From the NCBI RefSeq assembly GCF_024345415.1, contig NZ_JAGQBB010000010.1:1-64000 (forward strand): a stretch of 64,000 nucleotides of DNA. The letters are read 5' to 3'. Positions 35,149-41,790 of the stretch are shown here, piece by piece; the stretch's first letter is position 1; the number at the start of each line of letters is the position of its first letter. A program made the translations under genes and the position numbers. The notes under the pieces were generated by a model. That model saw nothing but the letters and a program-made list of their open reading frames with translations, made no database searches and was not told where the DNA came from. This DNA is from Synechococcus sp. Tobar12-5m-g. GTDB taxonomy: Bacteria > Cyanobacteriota > Cyanobacteriia > PCC-6307 > Cyanobiaceae.

Positions 35149-35811
35149 TCAGAGCTCCAGGCGGCGCCGCTCCTGTTGAAGCAAGCTGCGGCGGTGCTTC
35201 GCCTCCCGCAGCATTTCGCGCCCATCGCTCAGGTAGCTGTCCACGTAGCCCAGGGTGTAGCGCTCCAGTTCGGCCAGGGCGTCCTGCACCTGGCTGAGGC
35301 AGTGGTAGAGGCTGAGGCCGAACCCCTTGGCGGCGGCTGGGCAAGCCAGCGAACGAAACAGCGCCTCCACCTTCTCGAGCTTGGCCTTGCTCTGGGCGAG
35401 AAAGGCGCAGAACGACTCCATCAGGGCGTCGTCGTAGGGATCGGCGGAGAGGGCCCGCAGCTGGGCGGGGAAGGGGTTGATCACCTGGGCCAGCAACCGA
35501 TCGATCGGGGCGTAAACCTGCTGCAGCCAGGCCACCAGCTCGCCGTCCCGTGAGCGCCCGCGTCGGTGCGAAGGAGCGGCATGACCAGTGCCGACGAAGC
35601 CGGCCCGTTCCTGGTCATAGCGGCGGCGCTGCTCCACATCGCCCAGCACCGCCCAGGCGGCGTTGAGGGACAGGATCACCGTGGCATCGCCCCCGGCATC
35701 GGGATGGTGCCGCTTCACCAGGGCGCGGTAGGCCGCCTTGATGGCCGCGGCACTGGCACCGGGGGCGACCCCCAACACGGCGTAAAGCTCTGTCGTGGCG
35801 GGCGAAACCAT
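35149..35811 (-). CDS. J-domain protein
   Basis: A 220-aa protein with an N-terminal J domain (about 8-75) including LVKRHHPDAGGDATVILSL, where HPD is the DnaK-stimulating tripeptide. The rest is a helical region ending in a charged Arg/Glu segment (REMLREAKHRRSLLQQERRR), likely coiled coil. There is no Gly/Phe or zinc-finger region, so it is a class III J protein that recruits DnaK to one partner. Start at 35811 (MVSPATT) is chosen because the porin terminator ends at 35871. An ATG at 35838 is possible and would add nine residues. Confidence 0.85.
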   Translation of the reverse strand: MVSPATTELYAVLGVAPGASAAAIKAAYRALVKRHHPDAGGDATVILSLNAAWAVLGDVEQRRRYDQERAGFVGTGHAAPSHRRGRSRDGELVAWLQQVYAPIDRLLAQVINPFPAQLRALSADPYDDALMESFCAFLAQSKAKLEKVEALFRSLACPAAAKGFGLSLYHCLSQVQDALAELERYTLGYVDSYLSDGREMLREAKHRRSLLQQERRRLEL

Positions 35812-35870
35812 CAGGGAACCGAAGGGCGGATCCATCATCGCCAGGGTGGTCCATCGTTGCGCGATCACCC

Positions 35871-35898
35871 AACAGAAAGCCCCCCGTTTCCGGGGGGC
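35871..35898 (-). terminator. Terminator of porin A
   Basis: On the minus strand the sequence GCCCCCCG, tetraloop GAAA, CGGGGGGC forms an 8-bp stem followed by TTTCTGTT. It ends the transcript of the porin whose stop codon is at 35934-35936, and also forms the 3' hairpin of the Yfr1-like element described separately. Confidence 0.85.
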
Positions 35899-35942
35899 GC
35901 TGGTGTGGTGTGTGAGGAGGTCGGTGCTGAGGATCAGAACCG
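35871..35942 (-). ncRNA. Yfr1-like RNA element in porin A 3' end
   Basis: On the minus strand three parts follow each other. First is a hairpin spanning the porin stop codon (35942-35922: CGGT-T-CTGA, loop TCC, TCAG-C-ACCG, one mismatch). Second is a 23-nt unpaired stretch (35921-35899) reading ACCUCCUCACACACC and then ACACCAGC. Third is the GC-rich terminator hairpin. Yfr1, a cyanobacterial sRNA, is known to consist of two hairpins flanking an unpaired segment with the core ACUCCUCACAC. The element here has the same layout and the core with one extra C. Whether it is a separate RNA or only part of the porin mRNA cannot be told from sequence. yfr1 normally lies between guaB and trxA, which are not in this window. 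Confidence 0.5.
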
Positions 35943-37631
35943 GAAGGTGGTCTGCACCAGGCCGCCGAAGACATTGAAGTCGTCGTTGCTGCCGGTGTTC
36001 TGGCCGAGGGGACGGCTCAGGTAGAAGATCGCCGGGGTGACCGAGATGTTGTCGGAGACCCGGAAGCGATACCACCACTCCCAGACGTAGTTGCCGTCGT
36101 CGGGGGTGGTGCTGGCATCCTTGTTGGTGCCGGAAGACAACTGAGTGGCGAAGGTGCCTTGACCGACGGCCATGCCGGCGGCATTGCCTTTCGCGAACAC
36201 ATTATTCCACTGGAGACCCGCAAACCAGCTCTGGGACTGGGTGACATAAGGAGTAGAGAACTCCAGTCCGTTGCTTCTGATGTCGTTATCGGTGAGGGTG
36301 TTAATGCCCCAACCAACGCTCAGCGAGGGGATGAACCCTCCTGCCTTCTTGGGTTGCCAGTAGGCATTGACGGCGAAGTTGTTGGATTCACCGTTGGCCA
36401 GGAAGGAGCTGTTGGAGGCAGCAAAGCCCGTGCTGCGGCGGAAGTTGGTGGCTGCCTGGCCATAGCGGTAAGCCAGGGAGATGTTCCACTGGGGCGCTGT
36501 GTAGTTCAGCTGGGCCAGGAAGTTGCCGCGGGCGCAATCCGTGCCAATGCCACCTTCGCTACCAGAGCAAGTAAACGGGTTGCTCTCATATACGGTGCCC
36601 ACGTTACCTTGCTGGGCCACATAGCTGGCACCGAAGCTGAAGGCGCCTTGCCCCTTCTTGACATTCTGTTTCCAGATACCAGCCAGCAGAGAACCGGTTG
36701 CCTTGTTATAGACGCCCGGGGCACCATGGACAGAGAAATAATCAAGAATATTGCTGTTGTAAACCGAGGGGTTCACTGCCAGCGATTCGGTGTTCCGAGC
36801 TTTGGGGCCAACGATGAAGCTGAACTCCTTGCCAACGGGGAAGCGGTAGTAGAGACGATCAATACCGACACCATCGGAACCACCGAAGCCATTACTGGCT
36901 TTATCAAGCGTGGTCAGGTTGACAGGATCACCACTGCCTGCGTTGAAGGCATTGGCAAAATTCCCGGAGCGAAGACGGGTGTAGAGCAGGTCCTTGCCGG
37001 TGAAGCTGGTCAGGAAGTTCAGGCGAACGTCATAGCTGAAGGTGGTGGCACCGTTGGCCTGATTGTAGATATCAGACGTTTTACGGCCTGTGTTTGCCGG
37101 AGGCACAGAAGACAGCGAGCCATTGCGATCACCACCGGCAATGAGGGCACCCAGCACGAAGTTGGCTTCGCCCTGGAGCTTGGTGGTGGTGGAGAACTGG
37201 CTGGCTTCGAGTTCACCCACCTTGGCCTCGAGGCCATCCACCCGACCCTTGAGCACGGCGAGCTCGGCTTCGAACTCCTTCATCAGCCGACGGAGCTCAT
37301 CGGTCACCTCGGTGATCCGATCGAGGCAGGCGTTGAGGAGAGCGGCGGCTTCCCAGCGGCTCAGCGGCTGCTTGCCGCGGAAGGTGCCGTCGGGATAACC
37401 GGCTACGCAGCCATATTGCTCAACCAGGTTGGAGAGAGCCTGATAGGCCCACTCGGTGGGTTGAACATCGGAGAACTGGCTGATGCTGGTGACTTGATTC
37501 TGGCTCTTCGCGGTGGAAGGCCGGGCATACTTGTTGATGCCATCGAGATTGAGATCTGCGGCGGATGCGGCCAAGGGGCTCAAAAGCCCAAGGGCAACAG
37601 GCGCCAGCAGCAGTTGCTGGAACGGTTTCAT
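35934..37631 (-). CDS. SLH-domain outer-membrane porin A (som/OprB type)
   Basis: A 565-aa cyanobacterial major porin. Signal peptide is 1-24 (ending ASA). An S-layer homology domain at 53-107 (FSDVQPTEWAYQALSNLVEQ, then YPDGTF and LSRWEAAALLNACLDRI) binds the peptidoglycan-linked polymer. A coiled coil at about 108-143 (ELRRLMKEFEAELAVLKGRV) spans the periplasm, and an OprB-type beta-barrel from about 150 ends in the typical terminal Phe (TTFRF). These proteins let inorganic ions and small solutes through the outer membrane. Its paralogue lies directly upstream on the same strand. The mRNA start carries GGUGUGAGGAUCC before the ATG, a Yfr1-type target. Confidence 0.95.
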   Translation of the reverse strand: MKPFQQLLLAPVALGLLSPLAASAADLNLDGINKYARPSTAKSQNQVTSISQFSDVQPTEWAYQALSNLVEQYGCVAGYPDGTFRGKQPLSRWEAAALLNACLDRITEVTDELRRLMKEFEAELAVLKGRVDGLEAKVGELEASQFSTTTKLQGEANFVLGALIAGGDRNGSLSSVPPANTGRKTSDIYNQANGATTFSYDVRLNFLTSFTGKDLLYTRLRSGNFANAFNAGSGDPVNLTTLDKASNGFGGSDGVGIDRLYYRFPVGKEFSFIVGPKARNTESLAVNPSVYNSNILDYFSVHGAPGVYNKATGSLLAGIWKQNVKKGQGAFSFGASYVAQQGNVGTVYESNPFTCSGSEGGIGTDCARGNFLAQLNYTAPQWNISLAYRYGQAATNFRRSTGFAASNSSFLANGESNNFAVNAYWQPKKAGGFIPSLSVGWGINTLTDNDIRSNGLEFSTPYVTQSQSWFAGLQWNNVFAKGNAAGMAVGQGTFATQLSSGTNKDASTTPDDGNYVWEWWYRFRVSDNISVTPAIFYLSRPLGQNTGSNDDFNVFGGLVQTTFRF

Positions 37632-37635
37632 TGGA

Positions 37636-37645
37636 TCCTCACACC
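37636..37645 (-). promoter_or_regulatory. Porin A ribosome binding site with Yfr1-target sequence
   Basis: Minus-strand GGTGTGAGGA at 37645-37636, four bases before the ATG. GUGUGAGGA is the exact complement of UCCUCACAC in the Yfr1 core and also contains the Shine-Dalgarno GAGGA. Pairing there would block ribosome entry, as is established for porin mRNAs of Prochlorococcus MED4. Confidence 0.6.
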
Positions 37646-37655
37646 AATTGAGGGG

Positions 37656-37671
37656 GCTTCCATAGGGAAGC
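37656..37671 (-). other. Small hairpin in porin A 5' leader
   Basis: GCTTCC-CTAT-GGAAGC is a 6-bp stem with a 4-base loop, ending 10 bases before the Yfr1-type site. It could stabilise the leader or present the ribosome binding site. The rest of the leader up to the porin B terminator shows no promoter that I can place with confidence. Confidence 0.4.
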
Positions 37672-37810
37672 TTGGCGAAGTCTATCCGATCGAGCTTGCT
37701 TTGACCACAGCAAAACGGCGGAGTGGTGTGTTCTGGGATACCCCATTTTGGGTCCCCAAGGCCATCGGAGCAACAGTCAATCGGAGTGCCTGATCTTCAT
37801 CAAGGTGCCA

Positions 37811-37838
37811 TAAAAAAGCCACAGCCTTAAGCTGTGGC
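37811..37838 (-). terminator. Terminator of porin B
   Basis: On the minus strand GCCACAGC, loop TTAAG, GCTGTGGC is an 8-bp perfect stem followed by TTTTTTA. It lies about 110 bp after the porin B stop. The 3' UTR between stop and terminator holds a second perfect hairpin at 37891-37926. Confidence 0.9.
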
Positions 37839-37890
37839 CAAGAAAGAAGGAACTCGATGAGGGGTGCTTGGAAGGAAACGAATGAATTGA

Positions 37891-37926
37891 TTTTCGGCTG
37901 ATGGTGTGTGAGGGATCAGCCGAAAA
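37891..37926 (-). promoter_or_regulatory. Perfect 12-bp hairpin in porin B 3' UTR exposing an anti-Shine-Dalgarno loop
   Basis: The stem TTTTCGGCTGAT (37926-37915 on the minus strand) pairs perfectly with ATCAGCCGAAAA (37902-37891). The 12-nt loop reads CCCUCACACACC. The loop complements GUGUGUGAGG in the porin B 5' leader over 10 nt and the porin A leader over 8 nt (GUGUGAGG). It is too far from a T-run to be a terminator, and the real terminator follows downstream. I read it as a regulatory RNA element. Confidence 0.6.
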
Positions 37927-37946
37927 CCTTGAGGTGGCCTAAGCGA

Positions 37947-39545
37947 TCAGAACTTGAAGGTGGTCTTGAGCAGGCCGCCAAAGTTGTTCAGATCGGCCCT
38001 GAAATCAGTGCCTACATCTTGGCCCAAGGGAGCACTGAGATAGTAGATCGCAGGCGTCACGCTGATGTTGTCGGTGACCTGGAACTTGTACCACCACTCC
38101 CAGGCATATTGCCCGTCGTTGGCATCAAAGCTGGCGTCATCACCTGTTTTGGTCAGGAAGGTGGGCTGACCGACGGCCATGCCGGCAGCATTGCCCTTGA
38201 TGAACACATCGTTCCACTGCAAACCAACATACCAGGACTGGGATTGGGCGTTATCGAACGTTACGCAATCCACACCCACGCAGCTGGAGTCAATCGTGTA
38301 CTGGTTGATGCCCCAGCCTGTGCTGATTGAAGGAATCCAGCCGGAATTGGAGGGCTGCCAGTAGCCACTGACGCCAACGGAGTTGACGCTGTTAGCGAAA
38401 AGAAAACCCGTGACAGCCGTAGGGGTGCCGTTGCCTCCGTAGAGGCCAGCAACCCCATTGGGGGTGGAGTAGGTGTAAGCAACGGCAAGGCCGAAGTTGC
38501 TACCCGTGTAGGCGATCTGGGCGGTGCCGGTCTGCTGGGAGCAATCGTTGCCGATGCCGCCGCAGGTGGCGCTGTCAAGGCTTGGGCTGCCCACGTTGCC
38601 ATTGGCGGCCACGTAGTTGACACTCGCACTGAAGCCCCCGCTCTTCCACCACAGACCACCACCTGCGCCGAGGTTGAGGCTGTAGGCGCCGGGAGCACCG
38701 CCGTAGGTGAAGATGTCGAGAACGGTGTCAGCGGGGTACACGCTGGGCCAGACAGCCAGCATGTCGTCCTGACGGACCCGGGGACCGACGGTGGCGGTGA
38801 AGCTGCTGCCGATCGGGAACTGGTAGAAGAGCCGGTTGATCATGACCGAGTCAGGACCGGGAGGGCCTTCGAAGGCCACTTCCAGGGCGTTCAGGCCAAC
38901 GATGGGCTGGCCGTAGGGGCCGTCACCGAAGTTGCCGGCGCGCAGGCGGGTGCGCAGCAGGTCTTTGCCGGTGAAGCTGGTGTCGAAGTCAATCCGCAGG
39001 TCGTAGTTGAAGGCGGTGGCACCTTGAAGCTGCTGGGCCAGATCCGTGCGGGTACTGTCACCGCTGTAGGCGTTGGCACCGATCACGAAGGTGGCCTGAC
39101 CTTTCAGCTTGGTGGTGGTGGAGAACTGGTTGGCCTCCAGCTCACCCACCTTGGCCTCGAGGCCATCCACCCGGCCCTTGAGCACGGCGAGTTCGGCTTC
39201 GAACTCCTTCATCAGGCGACGGAGCTCGTCGGTCACCTCGGTGATGCGGTCGAGGCAGGCGTTGAGCAGGGCGGCGGCTTCCCAGCGGCTCAGCGGCTTC
39301 TTGCCGCGGAAGGTGCCATCGGGATAGCCAGCGACGCAGCCGTAGCGCTCCACCAGGTTGGAGAGAGCCTGGTAGGCCCACTCGGTGGGCTGAACGTCGG
39401 AGAATTGGGTGATGCTTGTGACCTGCTCCTCGGAGCCGGCGTACTTGTTGACGCCGTTGATGTTCAGCTCAGAGGCCGAAACGGCCATCGGAGCCAGCAG
39501 ACCGAGGGCTGCAGGCGCCAGCAGCAATTGCTGGAAAAGTTTCAT
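37947..39545 (-). CDS. SLH-domain outer-membrane porin B (som/OprB type)
   Basis: A 532-aa paralogue of porin A with the same parts: signal peptide 1-24, SLH domain (FSDVQPTEWAYQALSNLVER), coiled coil and OprB-type beta-barrel ending TTFKF. The SLH and coiled-coil regions are almost identical to porin A while the barrels differ strongly, pointing to a duplication followed by barrel diversification or exchange. Start at 39545 (MKLFQQLLLAPAALGLLAPM). The barrel contains several Cys pairs (for example in the region with CGGIGNDCSQQ) that might form surface disulfides. It has its own terminator, so porins A and B are separate units. Leader and 3' UTR carry the complementary motifs described. Confidence 0.95.
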   Translation of the reverse strand: MKLFQQLLLAPAALGLLAPMAVSASELNINGVNKYAGSEEQVTSITQFSDVQPTEWAYQALSNLVERYGCVAGYPDGTFRGKKPLSRWEAAALLNACLDRITEVTDELRRLMKEFEAELAVLKGRVDGLEAKVGELEANQFSTTTKLKGQATFVIGANAYSGDSTRTDLAQQLQGATAFNYDLRIDFDTSFTGKDLLRTRLRAGNFGDGPYGQPIVGLNALEVAFEGPPGPDSVMINRLFYQFPIGSSFTATVGPRVRQDDMLAVWPSVYPADTVLDIFTYGGAPGAYSLNLGAGGGLWWKSGGFSASVNYVAANGNVGSPSLDSATCGGIGNDCSQQTGTAQIAYTGSNFGLAVAYTYSTPNGVAGLYGGNGTPTAVTGFLFANSVNSVGVSGYWQPSNSGWIPSISTGWGINQYTIDSSCVGVDCVTFDNAQSQSWYVGLQWNDVFIKGNAAGMAVGQPTFLTKTGDDASFDANDGQYAWEWWYKFQVTDNISVTPAIYYLSAPLGQDVGTDFRADLNNFGGLLKTTFKF

Positions 39546-39550
39546 GGAAT

Positions 39551-39560
39551 CCTCACACAC
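39551..39560 (-). promoter_or_regulatory. Porin B ribosome binding site with Yfr1-target sequence
   Basis: Minus-strand GTGTGTGAGG at 39560-39551, followed by ATTCC and the ATG at 39545. Including the next A, the 11-nt GUGUGUGAGGA is a perfect complement of UCCUCACACAC found in the 3' end of porin A, and over 9 nt of the Yfr1 core. Confidence 0.6.
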
Positions 39561-39657
39561 GAGATGGCGCAAAGCGCACAACACCACAGTCACCCGGGCG
39601 GAACAGGGTGGCCAAGGAGGTTGTGCCAGAACGCGGAACGGCCATCGGGCGTTCAAA

Positions 39658-41790
39658 GTGTCGGGGCCCCGCGGCAAGCCCCTGGTTGCCCATCGTCTGC
39701 GCTTGCCAGTGCCCCGGAGAGCGGCGGGCTGGTGGCTGGCGCTCGGCCTGATCTGGCTCGCCTGCACCGCCGCCGACCGGCTCTGGCTCCGGCTCGACCA
39801 GCGGCTGCCGGCCTGGGATCAGGCCGAATACCTCAACAGTGCCGTCGACCATGGCCGCGCCCTGGGCCTGCTCCCGGGCGGTGGCTGGCAGGGCTGGAGC
39901 GCCCTGCTGGATCTCTCCCCCAAGATCCCGCCCCTGGCCAGCCTGGTGAACGGCACCGTGATGGCCGCCGCCGGCGACACCCCCGACCAGGCCAGCTGGG
40001 CCCTTGCCCTCTGGCAGGCGCTGCTGCTGGCCGTGGTGGCTGGCTGGGGGCGGCAGCTGGTGGGCCCGGGGTTCGGCCTGCTGGCGGCGGCTCTGGTTGG
40101 GCTCACTCCGGCGCTGGCCGCCCTGCGGGTGGATTTCACCCTCGATCTGCCGCTCACCGCCACCGCGCTGCTGGCGCTGTGGTTGCTGGGGCGCTGGGTC
40201 GCACCGGCCCCCACCGGCGGCCGCTGGAGCCAGGGGCTCGCCGCCGCGGGAGCCATCGCGGCGGCCGTGCTGGTGAAGCAGAGCGCCCTGCTCGTGCTGG
40301 TGCTCCCCTGCCTCTGGGCCGCGGCGCTGGGCCTGGGCAGCCGGGGACGGCGGCTGCAGGTGCTGGCGGCCCTGGCCCTGGTGGTGGGGGTCAGCCTTCC
40401 CTGGCTGCATCACAACTGGATCACCACCCTCGGCGGTACCAACAGGGCGGTGATCGAATCGGGGGCGCGGGAGGGGGATCCGGAGCCCTTCAGCACCGCC
40501 AGCTTGCTCTGGTACCCAAGGCTCTGGCCCGAGCAGCTCGGGATTCCCCTGCTGGGCCTCGGGGTGCTGGGGGGACTGCTGGCCTGGTTCGAGCGGCTAC
40601 GAACCGGGCCTGGGGCAAGGCTAGCAAGCGAAAACGGCGGCGAAAGCGGCCGGGGCTGGGGCTGGGTGATCGGCTGCGCCCTGGCCGGCTGGATCTGCAC
40701 CAGCCTCAGCCCCAACAAGGATCCGCGCTACATCGCCCCGGTGCTGCCCCTGCTGGTGCTGCTGCTGGGCTGGGGCTGGTGGAGCCTGCTGCGGCGCGCC
40801 CGGGGGCGCTGGGGGCTGGCGGCGGCGGCCTCGCTGCTCGGGGTCGGGCTGGCCGCGGCCGGGACCACGACGGCGGTGGAGCGAACCGGGCAGATCGAGA
40901 CCCAGCCAGGCTCGCCCCTTCCCGCCGTGCTCGCGGCGCTGCGGCAACAGGTGGGCAACCAACCCACCACCCTGATGGTGATTCCCTCGGCCGGCCCGGT
41001 CAACCAACACAACGCCACCAGCTTCGGGCGCCTCGGCGGGGGGCAGATCCTCGGCCGGGAAATCGGCAAGCGGGAGCAGGAGCAGCCCCTGGTGCTCAAC
41101 CAGGCCGATTGGGTCCTGCTGGCCAGTGGCGATCAGGGCACCAAACGGGAGGAGTCGCGGCGCCTGAGCGGGGAGGTGCGGCGGGATGGCCGTTTCCGGA
41201 TGGTTGGCAACTGGCCCTGGGACAAGGGGCGCCAGCTCGAGCTGTGGCGGCGCCGAGCCGAGGCCCCGCCAGCCCAGCGGTTTGACGGACCGTTCATCAC
41301 CTTGGCAAGGGGGCTGGAGCGGGGGCCGGCCGGGCTGGCGGCGATGTCCGATGCCATCGGCTCCCAGCACCAGCTCGATGGCCACTTTCTTTATCAACAA
41401 CGCGTCAGCGATTGGGCCCAGCAACGGCTGCGGCTGAACCGATCCGATCCCGATGCGCTCTGGAGCCTGGCGCTGCTGGCGGTGCTGCGCAACCGGCCCG
41501 CCGAAGCGGACGGCTGGTTCGCCCGGCTCGAGCAACTCGAGCGAACCAATCCCTGGCCCAGCGCCTACCGGGCCGTGGTGCTGCTGGCCGACTGGCAGGC
41601 CGGCACGGCCGCCTCCGTTGCCAAAGCCGCCTCCCTGAGGTTCGAGCAGCCCGTGCTGCCGGCCCTCGCGGATCTGGCCGGTGTCCTGCGGGGTGATCTG
41701 GGCCGGATCCAGCCGGCCAGGGAGTCCATACCCCGCGCCATCGAGGCGGTCCGCAGCGAACTGGAGGCCGCAGCGAAGCCCCGCCAGTAA
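39658..41790 (+). CDS. GT39/ArnT-like membrane glycosyltransferase A
   Basis: About 710 aa when started at the GTG at 39658 (MSGPRGKPLVAH). TTG and GTG codons a little further in are alternatives and no ribosome binding site decides. The N-terminal part has eight to twelve helices and the acidic loop LPAWDQAEYLN, where PMT/ArnT-type GT-C enzymes keep the catalytic Asp. The C-terminal 200 residues are soluble and include TPR-like helices (DALWSLALLAVLRNRPAEAD). Such enzymes move sugars from polyprenyl phosphate to lipids or proteins outside the membrane. It opens a four-gene set of polytopic proteins running to 46718 and is divergent from porin B. Confidence 0.82.
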   Translation: MSGPRGKPLVAHRLRLPVPRRAAGWWLALGLIWLACTAADRLWLRLDQRLPAWDQAEYLNSAVDHGRALGLLPGGGWQGWSALLDLSPKIPPLASLVNGTVMAAAGDTPDQASWALALWQALLLAVVAGWGRQLVGPGFGLLAAALVGLTPALAALRVDFTLDLPLTATALLALWLLGRWVAPAPTGGRWSQGLAAAGAIAAAVLVKQSALLVLVLPCLWAAALGLGSRGRRLQVLAALALVVGVSLPWLHHNWITTLGGTNRAVIESGAREGDPEPFSTASLLWYPRLWPEQLGIPLLGLGVLGGLLAWFERLRTGPGARLASENGGESGRGWGWVIGCALAGWICTSLSPNKDPRYIAPVLPLLVLLLGWGWWSLLRRARGRWGLAAAASLLGVGLAAAGTTTAVERTGQIETQPGSPLPAVLAALRQQVGNQPTTLMVIPSAGPVNQHNATSFGRLGGGQILGREIGKREQEQPLVLNQADWVLLASGDQGTKREESRRLSGEVRRDGRFRMVGNWPWDKGRQLELWRRRAEAPPAQRFDGPFITLARGLERGPAGLAAMSDAIGSQHQLDGHFLYQQRVSDWAQQRLRLNRSDPDALWSLALLAVLRNRPAEADGWFARLEQLERTNPWPSAYRAVVLLADWQAGTAASVAKAASLRFEQPVLPALADLAGVLRGDLGRIQPARESIPRAIEAVRSELEAAAKPRQ

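Follow-up and report, generated by a model that had tools for sequence, protein, structure and literature searches.

The mRNA of an outer-membrane porin of Synechococcus sp. Tobar12-5m-g is predicted to form a perfect hairpin in its 3′ UTR, with a loop complementary to porin Shine-Dalgarno (SD) regions. The question that this locus raises is what such an element does at the end of a porin message. The window, i.e. the whole stretch of DNA analysed, comprises 64,000 nucleotides (contig NZ_JAGQBB010000010.1, positions 1 to 64,000). The relevant features, in window coordinates, are the following:

37947..39545, minus strand: porin B, an SLH + OprB-type outer-membrane porin of 532 aa (open reading frame and translation; family named from sequence)
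39550..39560, minus strand: porin B SD region GUGUGUGAGGA (also given as GTGTGTGAGGA), a Yfr1-type target site (sequence)
37889..37928, minus strand: porin B 3′ UTR hairpin, 14 bp, with the seed exposed in the loop, a layout like that of Yfr10 (fold; covarying stems in relatives)
37906..37913, minus strand: invariant core CCUCACAC inside the porin B hairpin loop (alignments of relatives' hairpins)
37817..37839, minus strand: porin B intrinsic terminator (terminator prediction on sequence)
35934..37631, minus strand: porin A, 565 aa, the tandem paralogue downstream of B (open reading frame and translation)
37636..37645, minus strand: porin A SD region GGUGUGAGGA (also given as GGTGTGAGGA), a Yfr1-type target site (sequence)
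35907..35919, minus strand: porin A 3′ UTR element CUCCUCACACACC (also CTCCTCACACACC), unpaired, before the terminator, Yfr1-like layout (fold; same layout at relatives' loci L018 and L021-L027)
35879..35898, minus strand: porin A intrinsic terminator (terminator prediction on sequence)

Porins A and B are 61% identical and are both encoded on the minus strand, B upstream of A. On that strand the porin B hairpin consists of a left arm GGTTTTCGGCTGAT (37928-37915), a loop segment CCCTCACACACC (37914-37903) and a right arm ATCAGCCGAAAATC (37902-37889). The loop is CCCUCACACACC, and the stem is perfect over 14 bp with one G-U pair included; the 12 pairs counted in the original prediction are the inner ones. 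The hairpin forms in the predicted fold, the 36-mer having a minimum free energy of −14.9 kcal/mol (z = −7.25), equalled by none of 200 shuffles. Since the porin B reading frame ends at 37947 and its terminator occupies 37839-37817, the placement of the hairpin between stop codon and terminator was also correct. The same 11-mer, CCTCACACACC, recurs in the porin A 3′ UTR amid unrelated flanks, as had been claimed; there it is unpaired in the fold and lies 8 nt ahead of the terminator (35898-35879). The 2.95 Mb genome contains three copies of this 11-mer, two of them in the porin A and B 3′ UTRs and the third adjoining a possible mobile element, and no copy of the reversed control. Copying between the paralogues was rejected as the source of both elements, as their flanks and stems are unrelated.

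Over 10–11 bp the shared stretch complements the porin B SD region GUGUGUGAGGA, and over 8–9 bp the porin A SD region GGUGUGAGGA. Predicted duplexes of the elements with both porin SDs extend over 8–11 bp, with energies of −15 to −20 kcal/mol; that of the porin B loop with its own SD (CCUCACACAC/GUGUGUGAGG) has 10 bp and −19.2 kcal/mol. The energies for the porin A element and for the small RNA Yfr1 were not better than the best of 300 shuffled targets, and duplex energy alone thus proves nothing. The term anti-Shine-Dalgarno, under which the element was first described, is apt insofar as the element is complementary to porin SDs, but it is not the anti-SD of 16S rRNA.

Complementarity of a 3′ UTR motif to the SD region of its own message, as found for porin B, is known from icaR of Staphylococcus aureus, whose 3′ UTR pairs with its own SD (PMC3868564). 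The porin motif differs from that of icaR in being a known sRNA seed, common to paralogues and set in a covarying hairpin; and while icaR is subject to RNase III cleavage and a translation block, the porin likeness is one of sequence complementarity. Autoregulation by 3′ UTR-derived sRNAs is established for OppZ and CarZ of Vibrio cholerae, which pair with their own mRNA and repress it (PMC7398697), and ApcZ of Synechocystis is a 3′-end sRNA in a cyanobacterium (PMC8136909). The porin element would likewise be a 3′-end RNA; such RNAs arise by RNase E processing or from an internal promoter, whereas a porin RNA of this kind is a prediction from sequence.

The original observation holds, in a stronger form than first put, but the identity of the seed had been overlooked. 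By sequence, the cyanobacterial sRNAs Yfr1 and Yfr10 have CCUCACAC as their seed; this core lies at the heart of the ultraconserved Yfr1 motif ACUCCUCACAC (PMC2190773). Prochlorococcus Yfr1, which has the same seed, represses the porin mRNA PMM1121 about 4-fold via its 5′ UTR in E. coli (PMC6778093). Yfr10-type sRNAs carry the Yfr1 motif in the loop of a stem (PMC6778093). The true yfr1 gene of this genome (G000:C1:98329-98385) is matched by the Rfam covariance model RF01116 with 65 bits and lies between trxA and guaB, neighbours that were named by reading the sequence (L004). The same model gave no match at either porin element, even at E up to 10, so the porin elements are not copies of yfr1; that they are yfr1 itself was rejected by this result and by position, since they sit in porin 3′ UTRs and not between trxA and guaB. 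The undecamer ACUCCUCACAC is absent from both, A reading CCUCCUCACAC (10 of 11 positions) and B AUCCCUCACAC, with the 8-nt core CCUCACAC in common.

Each element nevertheless resembles one of the two sRNAs. The porin A element has the seed core of Yfr1 and stands unpaired right before a terminator hairpin, as the seed does in the 3′ half of Yfr1. Porin mRNAs are among the known targets of Yfr1, which differs from the porin elements in having a 5′ stem-loop. The porin B element shares with the Yfr10-type sRNAs of Prochlorococcus and marine Synechococcus a seed (CUCCUCACACAC) held in a single-stranded loop on a stem with unconserved flanks, a layout found in the porin B hairpin and in 14 others with different stems. 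The target set of Yfr10 overlaps that of Yfr1. Yfr10, however, is a separate small transcript (upstream of yfr2 in high-light Prochlorococcus), whereas the porin B element, as read from the DNA, is part of a porin mRNA 3′ UTR. It could instead be a free-standing Yfr10-type sRNA gene that has a promoter of its own and many targets and lies downstream of the porins by chance. Such a gene would fit the observation that Yfr10-type RNAs have only the motif in common, at unconserved genomic positions (PMC6778093). We consider it quite improbable: a search of 35700-39700 for a sigma-70-like promoter found none, although such a test is weak for a cyanobacterium, and the element recurs, with different flanks, after porins in about 15 genera.

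A scan that used both porins as queries yielded 76 loci of Synechococcus, Cyanobium and relatives. Of 132 distinct porin 3′ regions, 47 contained the heptamer CTCACAC; the reversed word occurred in 4, its reverse complement in 2, and shuffles gave 2.2 (maximum 6). Loop placement was tested on 50 motif instances that had not been selected for a stem: 19 were located in the loop of a perfect stem of at least 8 bp (expected share with shuffled flanks, 0.0027). In the closest tandem pairs (L018-L027) a hairpin loop holds the motif of the upstream porin, and the motif of the downstream porin precedes the terminator; L019 and L020 have CTCGCAC at the latter place. Four other porin 3′ UTRs (L049, L058, L073 and L084) have the seed twice, in a hairpin loop and again slightly downstream, where it is mostly unpaired.

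Fifteen porin 3′ UTR hairpins, that of porin B included and each distinct element represented once, were then compared. Their loops differ in length. They have 14 different inner 7-nt arms with a mean identity of 35%, and 105 of 105 inner pairs are standard, compared with 51% (maximum 77% in 10,000 deals) when right arms were randomly re-dealt. The loop sequence CCTCACAC is invariant in all fifteen, its eight positions being the only invariant columns of the alignment. The full pairing and the fixed core are partly expected, since only hairpins entered the set and CTCACAC was the search word. Stems that change and still pair fully around a conserved loop are what the original prediction had proposed to look for in relatives, and the free variation of the loop that would have contradicted it was not seen across lineages. 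An invariant loop, variable but paired arms and a stem that forms give good support to selection acting on a seed exposed in the loop, and the combination of variable stems with a fixed loop may be taken as its trace. A chance origin of the element was rejected on the basis of the genome count, the enrichment in porin 3′ regions, the loop placement and the re-dealing of arms.

The same comparison bears on whether the hairpin is mainly a 3′-end stability structure that blocks 3′ exonucleases, its loop sequence being incidental or inherited. Stable 3′ stems do protect mRNAs, and the stem here is stable and precedes a separate terminator. Yet the stems change completely while the 8-nt loop core is fixed, which is the reverse of a stem-only constraint, and porin A has the same core with no stem; we regard a mere stability function as very improbable.

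Coevolution of loop and SD was not visible, because both are invariant. Among porins lacking the exact motif, variants that keep pairing (wobble-keeping changes) were not clearly preferred. Across 201 genomes TCCTCACACACC was not clearly commoner than its reversed control; of its 63 matches, 16 fall in porin 3′ UTRs, about 10 resemble yfr1 genes and most others seem to be coding. For this sequence only the placement is telling, not the overall frequency.

The relation of the element to its putative target was followed in a survey of one genome per genus, covering 40 genera of the family and 87 porins. The site GTGTGAGG precedes the start codon in 56 of the 87, in most genera, AT-rich ones included. 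The 3′ motif follows 19 of these 56 porins, 2 of 7 with a partial match and, within this survey, none of the 24 without the site, some of which are fragments with the true start outside the stretch fetched (Fisher p = 0.0004). Restricted to independent pairs on the porin tree, the association was no longer significant; on that tree at least 15 changes of motif state occur. The element thus appears from these sequences to be patchy and quickly gained or lost, and it is found mostly in higher-GC genera; 37 of the 56 target-site porins are without the exact 7-mer. The earlier inference of selection on a loop-exposed seed is supported, with the limit that the element is patchy in the family and is not found in all target-site porins. 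Yfr1 was found in 35 of 41 genomes, and the 3′ elements therefore do not replace it.

A third porin of this genome, located outside the window (G000, C14:52429-54105; L011), shares 86% identity with porin B. The 3′ UTRs of the two agree into the left arm of the hairpin (GGTTTTCGGCTGATC) and part company there; GTGTGAGG is missing from the start region of this third porin. Target site and element were thus apparently lost together, probably via rearrangement at both flanks; since both flanks seem to have been replaced, the joint loss is suggestive only. A porin pseudogene (G000:C13:49294-50955; L014-L017, L245) retains the SD region TGTGTGAGGA and has in its 3′ UTR, ahead of the terminator, CTCTCCACACACACCCC, perhaps a decayed element.

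The main rival explanation makes the 3′ element a decoy for sRNAs of the Yfr2 family, which have a GUGUGAGG-type sequence in a 5′ single strand. Porin mRNA would then soak up Yfr2 and free Yfr1, an indirect feedback, or Yfr2 binding would alter mRNA stability. Yfr2 pairs physically with Yfr1/Yfr10 and relieves Yfr1 repression (PMC6778093). Synechocystis Yfr2 members carry GGTGTGTGAG or GGTGTGAGG, as read from oligonucleotides, those for Yfr2b/Yfr2c containing ggtgtgtgag and ggtgtgagg (PMC2662882); the element would thus have two pairing partners, Yfr2 and the porin SDs. A decoy, however, has no need to reside in mRNAs with a GUGUGAGG site, and yet among surveyed porins the element was found only there; a pattern search of this genome gave no clear Yfr2. 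We judge this explanation unlikely.

The reading that we favour, with a probability of about 0.58, is that the hairpin is a selected, Yfr10-like antisense element in the porin mRNA 3′ UTR that feeds back on porin translation. The loop seed CCUCACAC would pair with GUGUGAGG around porin SD sites, so that when porin mRNA is abundant its 3′ UTR would pair with the ribosome-binding sites of both porins. Pairing would lower translation and provide both negative feedback and cross-control of the two paralogues, the element acting within the mRNA or as a 3′-end fragment released by RNase. To the observed structure, complementarity, loop conservation with covarying stems and occurrence after target-site porins in the survey, this model adds pairing in vivo, repression as its outcome and action in cis or in trans, which we infer. 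As the seed in the tails of porin messages matches the ribosome-binding sites of the same messages, porins may encode their own brake. The element may also be redundant, because the Yfr1 of this genome can already bind the same sites. For a family-wide circuit, in which porin mRNAs targeted by the conserved sRNA Yfr1 would repeatedly have acquired an imitation of its seed in their own 3′ UTR, either looped out on a hairpin or ahead of the terminator, we see an even chance; the message would then be both target and antisense, and porin output would be linked to the Yfr1/Yfr2 network.

The seed was also encountered outside porin 3′ UTRs. At four loci of one genus (g9; L142, L144, L149 and L151) TCCTCACACACC is flanked by GGCC on both sides and lies 5 nt before an ATG (MKTFALAAA...), and a Yfr1-type seed may thus also occur in a 5′ UTR. 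At L143, L150 and L153 it lies just upstream of an ATG reading MSVAIP(I/V)TT; L150 also carries, on the opposite strand and at a distance of about 1.5 kb, a match to the glutamine-II riboswitch. On the minus strand of L137, near position 1660 and away from porins, CCATGGC-TCCTCACACACC-GCCATGG places the motif in a loop on a 7-bp stem; it may be a Yfr10-like RNA or chance, and it also lies within a long open frame.

What is new here is that, as far as the sequence tells, the seed is that of Yfr1/Yfr10 and is located inside mRNAs that are themselves Yfr1-type targets. The papers searched gave no description of an element of this kind in porin 3′ UTRs. Porins control entry into the cell, and Yfr1 is among the most conserved cyanobacterial sRNAs. 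A seed carried inside its own target mRNAs would be a concrete and easily tested case of 3′ UTR feedback; it could show how the seed of a trans-acting sRNA is taken over for action in cis, and it points to a possible connection of porin expression with the Yfr1/Yfr2 network.
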